Shown here one piece after another: positions 7,553 through 10,213 of a stretch of DNA of 13,969 bases. A program made the translations under genes and the position numbers. Where the stretch lies: assembly GCA_021769025.1 (NCBI GenBank), contig JAETTS010000025.1:1-13969 (forward strand). Reading direction: 5' to 3'. The notes beneath the pieces were generated by a model. The model did not search any database. It saw only the letters and a list, made by a program, of their open reading frames with translations, and was not told the origin of the DNA. This stretch comes from Enterocloster bolteae. GTDB lineage: Bacteria > Bacillota_A > Clostridia > Lachnospirales > Lachnospiraceae. The number at the start of each line of letters is the position of its first letter. Positions within the stretch are counted from its first letter, which is position 1.

Positions 7553-8404
7553 TTAAGATAGAATCTTATTTTCCGTCCGCCAGAGTCTTGGCGGGATCCC
7601 GTAGACATTCTTAAAAGCTCTGGAGAAATGAAGCTGGCTGGGATATCCCACTGCATTGCTTATATCTCCCACCGACAGCTCCGTAAGCTTTAAAAGCTCT
7701 GCGGCTTTTGTCATGCGATAATGAATGAGAAATTCCTGAGGATTCTTTCCCACAGAATCCTTGAAAATCTTGCCAAAATAGCTGCGGTTTAAATTGCAGA
7801 AGGCAGCGATATCTTCCACGGAGATATCGTTCTGGAAGTTTTGCTCAATGAAGGATAAGGCTTCCCTCACATAGAAATCCTGAAGTTTCCCTGTCTGCAT
7901 TCGCTTCTGGCAGGAGGAAGAACGGGTCAGATAGTCTAAAAACAGATACAGATGGCCGATGAGGTGCAGGGGGGGAAGATCCGAATGATTGGTGATATAA
8001 AGCATCTCATTCTTCAACTCCTGGCTTAAATCCCTGGAATTGGTATGGTAGACAGGTGAAGAGGTTGTAAGCCCGGCCAGCTCCAGAGCCTCCTTTACCC
8101 TGAGACCGTCAAATTCCACCCAGGTATATTCCCATGGGTGCTTCTCATCAGCAGCATATGTGGCTACCTGCTTGGGAAAGATCATAAAGCCTTCACCGCT
8201 TTTTAAGCGGTATGTGTGGTTCTGTCCGCTTGAATCCATGGAAACCAGGGTTCCCGTTCCTGAAATGATGTAGTGAAACAGATAATGATTCCTGACATAT
8301 GGTCCGTAGGAATGGAGAGGTGCACATTGCTCCCACCCATATTGATATAATCCTAGGTCAACGAACCGTTCGTTAGGAAAGACTGAAAACAGCACATTGC
8401 TCAT
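7553..8404 (-). CDS. AraC-family regulator, MsmR-like
   Basis: 283-residue transcription factor. The N-terminal half (residues ~15-95) is a cupin-type AraC ligand-binding domain with HYIISGTGTL and FMIFPKQVATYAADEKHPWEYTWVEFDG. The C-terminal ~100 residues hold the paired helix-turn-helix DNA-binding domain: DISVEDIAAFCNLNRSYFGKIFK, then LSVGDISNAVGYPSQLHFSRAFKNVYGIPPRLWR. The family usually activates a divergent sugar operon in response to the sugar, and here the divergent operon is an alpha-galactoside ABC system plus alpha-galactosidase, as in the msm loci of streptococci. Start: ATG 8404 with AAGGAG about 10 nt upstream, and the family typically begins SNVLFSVFPNERF; ATG 8449 lacks a site. 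Confidence 0.92.
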   Translation of the reverse strand: MSNVLFSVFPNERFVDLGLYQYGWEQCAPLHSYGPYVRNHYLFHYIISGTGTLVSMDSSGQNHTYRLKSGEGFMIFPKQVATYAADEKHPWEYTWVEFDGLRVKEALELAGLTTSSPVYHTNSRDLSQELKNEMLYITNHSDLPPLHLIGHLYLFLDYLTRSSSCQKRMQTGKLQDFYVREALSFIEQNFQNDISVEDIAAFCNLNRSYFGKIFKDSVGKNPQEFLIHYRMTKAAELLKLTELSVGDISNAVGYPSQLHFSRAFKNVYGIPPRLWRTENKILS

Positions 8405-8500
8405 AAAATACAAGCTCCTTCCGTAAGTTTGTTGAAAAATCTGGGGCATATCAAATTAATTTCCGTTAAATTCCACATGTAGCAAGAGTATCTGCTGTCT

Positions 8501-8530
8501 ATTATATACCAAAATGGGACTCGATTTCAA
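8501..8530 (-). promoter_or_regulatory. Promoter for the AraC-type regulator
   Basis: On the minus strand TTGAAA (8530-8525), 18-bp spacer, perfect TATAAT (8506-8501), giving a leader of about 90 nt before the ATG at 8404. Confidence 0.65.
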
Positions 8531-8562
8531 GATAAGATTAAAAATCTAGCATATTGGTATAT
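8504..8562. promoter_or_regulatory. Spaced 9-bp inverted repeat overlapping the regulator promoter
   Basis: ATATACCAA (8504-8512) and TTGGTATAT (8554-8562) are perfect reverse complements with centres 50 bp apart. The left arm overlaps the -10 region of the regulator promoter. About five helical turns between arms suits two regulator dimers and looping, so autoregulation by the AraC-type protein is a reasonable inference. Confidence 0.4.
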
Positions 8563-8581
8563 GATTCCTAAAATCGTTGTA

Positions 8582-8610
8582 TTTACGACGCCGTTTCCAG
8601 GTGTTATCAT
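8582..8610 (+). promoter_or_regulatory. Candidate promoter for the alpha-galactoside operon
   Basis: TTTACG (8582-8587), 17-bp spacer, TATCAT (8605-8610): 4/6 and 5/6 matches, as expected of an activator-dependent promoter. Transcription would begin near 8617, giving a 5' leader of about 295 nt. No better rightward promoter is seen nearer the ATG; a TTGTAA (8820) with a poor -10 is weaker. Confidence 0.4.
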
Positions 8611-8621
8611 TTAGTGCGAAA

Positions 8622-8890
8622 GGAAAGTAAACCTGCATGCTAAACCCCCATGCCGCTTTCCCGGCACCACCATGAATGAAAGGGGGTTTACTATGAACCC
8701 TCCGGGGGATGCACACAAAATGCCAAAAGCGGGCATTTTGGCGCTGTACGGTCAGCGCAGCAGGTGCGCAGACCTACCATGAGGGTTCGAGACTTTCATA
8801 GTAATATAAGCCGCGGCGATTGTAACATGCAGTAACAGGGAGTACATAGGAACTGTTACAACAGGCAGGATCAGCCGGCCGCTGATTCTG
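8622..8890 (+). ncRNA. Heavily structured leader RNA or dispersed structured repeat upstream of the binding-protein gene
   Basis: Perfect pairings fill most of this stretch. (1) TAAACCCCC 8641-8649 with GGGGGTTTA 8682-8690, enclosing TGCCG/CGGCA (8651-8655/8662-8666). (2) A closing stem GAACCCTC 8695-8702 with GAGGGTTC 8781-8788, extended by ACTAT/ATAGT (8690-8694/8798-8802), around three hairpins: CAAAATGCC/GGCATTTTG (8716-8724/8732-8740), GCGCTG/CAGCGC (8741-8746/8753-8758) and AGGT/ACCT (8762-8765/8772-8775). (3) GTAACAG/CTGTTAC (8832-8838/8853-8859). (4) CAGGATCAGC/GCTGATTCTG (8866-8875/8881-8890). Competing pairings exist: AGTAAACC 8626-8633 can take GGTTTACT 8685-8692, and the hairpin loop CTTTCC 8656-8661 can pair with GGAAAG 8622-8627 (pseudoknot). 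I do not recognise a known riboswitch class. A genomic repeat family that happens to be structured is the main alternative. Confidence 0.45.
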
Positions 8891-8911
8891 TAAAAAAACA
8901 GGAGGTAAATT

Positions 8912-10213
8912 ATGCGAAAAACAATGAAAAAGGGAATTGCCTTAGGGTTATCCCTGGGATTGGCAGTTGCTTCCTTAAGCGGATGCCAGGGATCCGGCAG
9001 GACGGCAGACGGAAAGGTAAAACTGTCATTCCAGATTTGGGATAACGCACAGAGGGCAGGTATGCAGTCTATCGTTGATGCCTACATGGCCCAGAATCCA
9101 AATGTATCAATCGAAGTGCAGGTAACTAGCTGGGATGAGTACTGGACCAAGCTGGATGCGGCAGCGGAGTCCAATCAGCTTCCGGATATTTTCTGGATGC
9201 ACACCAACCAGATCTTAAAGTATGCGGATTATGGTATGCTGGCGGATGTAACCAACCTTTACGATGACGTGGACCCTAATTTCTACACGGAGCACTTTTC
9301 TGAGGTTTCCTTAGACAACGCAAAGGGAAGCAACGGAAAGATGTATGGAGTACCAAAGGATAAGGATACGGTCTGTCTGGTATATAATAAAGAAATGTTT
9401 GACGCAGCAGGCGTGGCTTATCCGGACGAAACTTGGACCTGGGATACCTTATGCGACGCTTCCGCTCAGATTTATGAGAAAACCGGAAAATATGGATATA
9501 TGGCCTATGGTGATGACCAGCTTGGCTACTGGAACTTTGTATACCAGGCAGGGGGGCACATTTTAAACGAGGATAAAACAAAAGCAGGCTTTTTGGATCC
9601 GGCGACCAAAAAAGGAATGGAGTTTTATATCAATCTGCAGAAGGAAGCCTGGTGTCCGGATCAGAATTACTTTGCAGAGACCAACCCAGGAACTGCTTTT
9701 ATTTCCGAACAGGGAGCGATGTACCTGGAAGGTAACTGGAACCTGATGTCCATGAGAGAGAACAATCAGGAGTTGGAAGGAAAATGGGATGTTGCGGTTC
9801 TGCCTATGTGCCCGGATCCGGTAAATGGTGACGGAAGAGCCACCATATCCAACGGCCTCTGCTAGTCTACAGGAGCCAGGGGAAAGAATTTAGAGTATGC
9901 TCTTGATTTCCTGAAATTTGCAGGTTCTGAGGAGGGACAGCGGATTCAGGGACAGTCAGGTGCGGCAATTCCGGCGTACAATGGTTTGGAGGATACCTGG
10001 ATCGGCGCATTTGATAAGTTCGATTATGATATGAACATTGAAAAATGTGTGGAAATGTTCCCATATGGCGTGCAGAGTGTCAACAATGCAAGCAGGCCTA
10101 ACTGGAAGACTCAGGTCAATGATCTCTTGTTAAAGATTTATAGCGGAGAACTGACCCTGGATCAGGGCCTGGAAGCAATGCAGAAGCAGGTTGACGAAGC
10201 GAAAGCACCGTAA
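8912..10213 (+). pseudogene. Sugar ABC transporter solute-binding lipoprotein (CUT1, MsmE-like) interrupted by an amber codon
   Basis: A 433-codon frame with one internal TAG at codon 318 (9863-9865). The N-terminus is a lipoprotein signal with lipobox L22-S23-G24-C25. The body is a family 1 extracellular solute-binding protein: LSFQIWDNAQRAGMQSIVDAY, PDIFWMHTNQILKYADYGML, YGVPKDKDTVCLVYNKEMFD and GAMYLEGNWNLM. After the TAG the same frame continues with family-typical sequence (EYALDFLKFAGSEEGQR, SGAAIPAY, GELTLDQGLEAM) to a TAA at 10211-10213, so only one codon is wrong. The aligned position usually carries an aromatic or small polar residue after GLG/GLC. Without read-through the product lacks 116 residues of the C-terminal lobe and should not bind sugar normally. 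AGGAGG at 8900-8905 precedes ATG 8912. First gene of the transporter operon; the downstream permeases are intact. Confidence 0.85.

Follow-up and report, generated by a model that had tools for sequence, protein, structure and literature searches.

The segment at positions 8641–8804 (plus strand) of a 13,969-nucleotide stretch of Enterocloster bolteae DNA (hereafter the window) is very probably a non-coding, non-autonomous mobile repeat of a Lachnospiraceae family, carried as a passenger in the leader of an operon. The unit is about 164 bp long and runs from TAAACCCCCATGCC to ACTTTCATAGTAA; its best copies elsewhere are 93–94% identical. We call it type B. A second kind of unit, type A, has in common with it a mismatched hairpin (hairpin B). 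The initial annotation had described the region as a switch-like RNA fold, possibly a new cis-regulatory RNA, and had named as the other possibility a mobile or dispersed structured repeat that landed between divergent promoters. It is this other possibility that is borne out, by the many sites at which the unit occurs, its tandem units, empty sites and its absence from 16 orthologous loci.

The window copy lies between two divergent genes. An AraC-family regulator (PF02311 and HTH_AraC) occupies 7553–8449 on the minus strand, and the sugar-binding protein (SBP) gene of an alpha-galactoside ABC operon occupies 8912–10210 on the plus strand (PF01547 on 8912–9862). The SBP frame, from 8912, is broken by an in-frame TAG at 9863–9865 and is then open again as far as about 10210, which may reflect inactivation of the gene or a miscalled base. 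Between the divergent genes and outside the insert, an inverted-repeat region (8505–8562; TATACC..AAATG and TAGCAT..GGTATA) aligns with two orthologous loci (L286 and L287) and is kept in both of those intergenic regions. We presume from its sequence that this is the operator of the AraC-type regulator, which would bind there. A sequence at 8832–8859, GTAACAGGGAGTACATAGGAACTGTTAC, lies between the element and the SBP gene and is like a minimal type-A end pair; no target duplication was seen around it by eye.

The initial annotation placed a plausible promoter upstream of the fold, and its case is mixed. The candidate comprises a −10-like region (TATCAT, 8605–8610) and a presumed start of the SBP operon transcript at about 8617 (8602–8617, plus strand). 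The match to consensus is weak and no commoner than chance: three such matches occur in 2 kb where 3.6 are expected, so the match ending at 8610 carries little weight alone. The −10-like region does align with the two orthologous operons, and this alignment supports a putative start near 8617. Both the operator pair and the −10 region are conserved in the three-way comparison, and the element is present in the window only.

The segment folds strongly, as had been claimed. The minimum free energy (MFE) of 8617–8810 is −72.4 kcal/mol, against −55.0 ± 4.3 kcal/mol for dinucleotide shuffles (z −4.07; 1 of 200 shuffles as good). The opposite strand is just as stable (z −3.78, matched by 0 of 200 shuffles), so folding picks no strand, and this is as expected of DNA palindromes. 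Among 143 194-nt tiles covering the window, three fold better than 8617–8810; the raw stability of the segment is therefore high but not unique. The sequence elements of the supposed switch are where they had been placed: the C5 run at 8645–8649, the two G5 runs at 8682–8686 and 8704–8708, and AGTAAACC at 8626–8633. The MFE structure, in which the C5 run finds its partner in the second G5 run, differs from the hairpin and closed three-hairpin junction that had been drawn. The window has no match at the gathering threshold in Rfam 15, and a search of 8550–8911 at E values up to 10 returned only implausible weak matches (best SCARNA16, E 0.7). At the gathering threshold, 12 loci gave one tRNA and nothing else.

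Covariation among the copies, the check that had been recommended for this fold, backs two inner hairpins and neither of the longer-range stems. Inner hairpin A (CAAAATGCC/GGCATTTTG, 8716–8740, plus strand) and inner hairpin B (GGTC-A-GCGCA/TGCGC-A-GACC, 8750–8774, plus strand), the latter being the module common to type-A units, both covary. Across 30 type-B copies (29 chosen by hand among 44 rows, plus that of the window), 97.6% of the cells in the two hairpins are paired, with 13 both-side changes versus 2.6 in shuffled alignments; here and below the shuffles ignore the relatedness of copies, so that such counts are not probabilities. Both-side changes occur at two pairs of hairpin A (AU to GC in 4 and 5 of the 30). 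The A·A mismatch of hairpin B is present in 30 of 30 copies, and is kept in the four in which GGTC/GACC has become GGAC/GTCC; a copy outside this set, at L202, has GGGC/GCCC. On the minus strand, from 8777 downward, hairpin B reads as a GTAG followed by an imperfect palindrome, which is REP-like, and 21 of the 30 copies have the GTAG tag. Covariation cannot tell RNA from single-stranded DNA.

The switching stem of the initial annotation (AAACCCCC/GGGGGTTT, 8642–8689, plus strand) exists in the sequence and is unsupported as conserved structure. Over 20 copies (the window and 19 of 22 full rows, the other three being the same places fetched twice), 76.8% of its cells are paired versus 77.7% after shuffling, and it has no both-side changes. 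The junction-closing stem (ACTAT + GAACCCTC with GAGGGTTC + ATAGT; 8690–8802, plus strand) fares no better in the same 20 copies: 83.4% of cells are paired versus 83.1% after shuffling, and its single both-side cell is reached by 112 of 500 shuffles.

Type-B units are dispersed. BLASTN of 8617–8811 was run against 12 genomes chosen for holding hairpin B; all 12 matched, and near-full-length type-B copies came from three of them (G001, G002 and G003). G001 gave 46 matches on many contigs, its near-full units being 81–94% identical. Many copies at unrelated loci is the outcome that had been named in advance for a repeat family. The copies we inspected lie on many contigs with differing neighbours. 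Several are in tandem (two full units at L168, a near-full pair at L173, a full and a cut unit at L169), and some adjoin another unit, X, which has similar ends and lacks hairpin B. In the window, the 14 bp at 8626–8639 (AGTAAACCTGCATG, plus strand) resemble the start common to the X units of L170 and L175 and to other left ends. They are presumably what is left of a second, largely deleted unit of the same array, the rest of X being gone. BLASTN of the segment found no match in plasmids. In a phage collection only the 3′ hairpin was matched, weakly and three times (best E 0.05), on human-gut contigs that share the hairpin and differ in its surroundings. Twelve loci from a pattern scan of IMG/VR (L004–L015) were excluded as unrelated after inspection of their flanks. 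Many loci in one genome, together with empty sites in relatives, mark type B as a dispersed non-autonomous repeat. The inverted ends and long target duplication of a MITE in the strict sense are found in type A and are both absent from type B, the ends of which (GTAAACC..CATG and TTTCATAGTAA) are not an inverted pair. We found no earlier description of the repeat family in Rfam scans or in the titles and abstract openings of the literature searched.

Comparison with relatives shows what the loci look like when empty. A close relative of the window's SBP gene is present in 16 of 397 genomes of the family, in 13 of them with araC in the window's arrangement, and BLASTN at E ≤ 1e-3 gives the type-B element at none of the 16 loci, nor is its hairpin present at any of them with up to 2 changes allowed. 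In G001 a type-B unit sits at the rplL stop codon, and the locus reads AAAGTAA-insert-GTAATTT; the sister genome G428, 95% identical to G001 there, is empty and reads AAAGTAATTT. GTAA flanks the insert on both sides and occurs once in the empty site, and nothing longer is common to both sides. The unit is absent from all 22 readable rplL loci among 23 other matching genomes, one locus ending at a contig edge. A second array of G001, consisting of X and B, is absent from G428; the left end of this array is decayed. At a third locus G002 is empty, and the unit in G428 is another, degenerate one that shares the left end. GTAA on both sides is cleanly defined at one empty site only, that at rplL. 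Right ends have GTAA in 21 of the 30 aligned copies. Anchored left ends were obtained at 20 of 39 loci; GTAA precedes 11 of these and is absent in 9, and type-B ends may have come to lack it by decay or otherwise. No 8-bp duplication is present at two type-B empty sites.

Hairpin B is also part of type A. An exact scan for ACGGTCAGCGCAN{2,8}TGCGCAGACC in GTDB genome contigs returned at least 120 stretches. Most of the titles listed are of Lachnospiraceae or genera placed there, with several genomes recurring; the others read Clostridiaceae, Clostridium, Eubacterium, Eubacteriales, Clostridiales or simply 'bacterium'. The exact pattern occurs in 7 of 397 sampled genomes of G001's family, up to 21 times each (0 for the reversed control), so the family is dispersed but patchy. 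Type A forms the majority of the listed stretches. It is about 133 bp long, with ends GTAAC[AT]GTTCAG..CTGAAC[AT]GTTAC, and a perfect 8-bp target duplication (TSD) accompanies it in 54 cases among 258 strand-wise hairpin matches, which correspond to about 129 sites because this near-palindromic hairpin usually matches on both strands. We collected 63 distinct TSD-flanked type-A elements of 40–420 bp, 48 of which contain the exact hairpin. The copies at L262, L255 and L254, of 40, 50 and 61 bp, have little beyond the ends and still have TSDs, so the type-A ends seem to be enough for movement. In a subfamily of about 159 bp (L250–L253, L258 and L260), the loop of hairpin B holds an extra hairpin.

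The likely source of type-A movement is an IS66-family transposon. At L269 (3296–5182) lies a single-ORF transposon with a 520-codon frame containing DDE_Tnp_IS66, ends of the type-A kind and the target repeat CTAATTGGA. Directly beside it is a 105-bp element with the same ends and the same repeat. The L269 element thereby links type A to the IS66 family; its ends contain no hairpin B. GTAA ends with 8-bp duplications are a trait of that family, and L267 holds an ordinary IS66 with GTAA ends and an 8-bp TSD; the family includes an ISBst12-like group with a single ORF. Both elements emerged from a wider end search on eight regions, an initial search round IS66 and Y1 genes having given no TSD-flanked pair. 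Unequal flanks led us to drop two long end pairs, found in G011 and G008.

The hairpins of type A covary strongly. In an alignment of 51 elements (two more were left out, their orientation being ambiguous), both-side changes affect every one of the 9 outer pairs of the middle hairpin and 4 of its 6 inner pairs. The middle hairpin and hairpin B together have 97 both-side cells versus 19.3 in shuffled alignments and at most 26 in slid controls. Because most type-A loci were retrieved through the hairpin-B pattern, the constancy of hairpin B in this set is biased; that of the middle hairpin is not. In two of the 51 rows (L043:7443–7576 and L127:6247–6380) a perfect 10-bp stem, GGTGTCAGCA/TGCTGACACC, stands in place of hairpin B; it has no mismatch, and the loop and flanks are unchanged.

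Type-A copies are also strongly oriented with respect to their neighbours, as judged from codon-scored gene calls. Of 123 rows, 28 were dropped for lacking type-A ends and 13 for lacking a neighbour. The remaining 82 copies between called genes (among L016–L135) comprise 54 whose two neighbours both run antisense to the hairpin, 9 with both sense, 16 divergent and 3 convergent. The imbalance of 54 to 9 has a binomial p of 6e-9, for copies that share genomes and are not fully independent. In eight of the 54 antisense copies the upstream gene call extends 4 nt into the element and stops there, at the element's GTAAC end. Type B gives 16 copies with both neighbours sense, 7 with both antisense, 8 divergent and 4 convergent, in a set of 35 that comes mostly from one genome (tandems merged by hand; three contig-edge copies, two inside called genes and second tandem copies dropped). 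The two types lean opposite ways, which argues against one shared RNA role of hairpin B, but the type-A bias is large.

A cognate transposase with the same ends was found for type A, at L269, and not for type B. The 12 carrier genomes contain 23 Y1 matches, spread over eight genomes and missing from the other four. Hairpin B is present at 0 of the 23 Y1 loci, and the seven with inspected flanks have ends that differ from those of type B. IS66 is likewise present in 8 of the 12; the two sets of genomes differ, so neither enzyme alone explains all copies. A right-end pattern allowing three mismatches matched 39 places in G001 (3 for the reversed control). Thirty loci were given for these, and the five inspected for new neighbours revealed no autonomous element.

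We propose that the type-B unit inserted at a GTAA in the 5′ leader of the AraC-controlled alpha-galactoside ABC operon, a few nucleotides past the presumed start. Type-B units may transpose as hairpins of single-stranded DNA, joining 3′ of TTAC on the minus strand, in the manner of IS200/IS605 or REP elements, with the conserved mismatched hairpin serving as the signal recognized by a protein. Each unit itself ends in TTAC, so further units could land alongside and build up arrays. The operon copy would be transcribed within the leader simply because of where it landed, and any influence on expression would be incidental. That the window copy is such a leader passenger is probable. The single-strand route is a more tentative proposal, to which we give somewhat less than an even chance; it is suggested by three features that recall IS608 insertion and REP recognition, namely the site at GTAA/TTAC, a subterminal hairpin with a mismatch, and a GTAG tag.

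Three other accounts of the window unit have to be weighed. We consider it extremely unlikely that the segment is a new cis-regulatory RNA, a riboswitch or attenuator of the alpha-galactoside operon whose C5 run switches between two G5 runs. Such an RNA would suit the stable fold, the position in the leader and the alternative pairings visible in the sequence, but not the empty orthologous loci, the recurrence of the unit at many other places, the switching and junction stems that do not covary, or the Rfam results. The unit might instead be a diverged member of a MITE family mobilized by an IS66 (DDE) transposase, like type A. The common hairpin B points that way, as do the 8-bp duplications of type A and the match of its ends to the L269 transposon; yet the type-B ends are different and not inverted with respect to each other, the two empty sites inspected lack an 8-bp duplication, and we find this account quite improbable.

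The hairpins might also be domesticated RNA elements that process, stabilize or insulate mRNAs when transcribed, with mobility belonging to the past only. The single prevailing orientation of type-A copies, mostly between co-directional genes, and the covariation of their hairpins favour this, but the type-B bias is weak and reversed relative to hairpin B, the exact hairpin is patchy in the family, and the 40–61-bp type-A copies have 8-bp duplications without full hairpins. We regard domestication as unlikely, and continue to favour a mobile passenger for the window unit. A wider conjecture, which we think doubtful, is that hairpin B would be a portable REP-like single-strand signal of Firmicutes used by two unrelated kinds of unit, IS66-type MITEs and TTAC-targeting tandem units, with RNA-level selection in the IS66-type MITEs inside operons. 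If true, that selection would explain both the 54-to-9 bias and the strongly covarying hairpins.

The closest known kinds are MITEs and REPs. Bacterial MITEs are short, non-coding, intergenic and present in many copies, and their transcripts have stable stem-loops (PMC10969869). Type A is like them in its terminal inverted repeats, 8-bp duplications and matching autonomous transposon, whereas type B differs in having no inverted terminal repeats, landing at GTAA and forming tandem arrays. A word search of that review gave no occurrence of IS66, Clostridi, Lachnospir or Firmicutes. Hairpin B is like the GTAG palindromes of TnpA_REP systems in its GTAG (21 of 30 copies), its imperfect palindrome and its conserved internal mismatch, as in E. 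coli REPs (PMC3733652, PMC8266576), where recognition by TnpA_REP requires an internal bulge (PMC8266576). It differs in being embedded in units of about 164 or 133 bp, with no accompanying Y1 gene found nearby. GTAG repeats are listed for Proteobacteria, Cyanobacteria, Chloroflexi and the PVC group (PMC3733652), and the text of that source contains neither Firmicutes nor Clostridi in a word search.

IS608, of the IS200/IS605 group, inserts next to TTAC (PMC5934647). Type B resembles it in adjoining, in many copies, a TTAC that is kept in the flank and in having subterminal imperfect hairpins, but has TTAC on both sides, and the IS200-like element of G001 (L208) has ends unlike those of type B. 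The subterminal imperfect hairpin, GTAG tag and mismatch of IS200/IS605- and REP-type elements are present in type B; a Y1 gene flanked by the repeat was not found. As for the IS66 family, type A agrees in its ends and duplications with the 520-codon DDE_Tnp_IS66 element, whereas that element lacks hairpin B and its ends are not those of type B.

These findings raise the question of why one mismatched hairpin is common to elements that apparently insert in two ways. Stable, covarying, leader-like folds in gut Lachnospiraceae may pass for riboswitches among annotators and hunters of RNA motifs. Moreover, some carrier genomes offer dozens of natural insertions for measuring the effect of a mobile hairpin on operon expression. 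In the trp region of Blautia parvula (L023, 6488–7147), a truncated type-A element, by eye, supplies the C-terminus and stop codon of a putative trpF.
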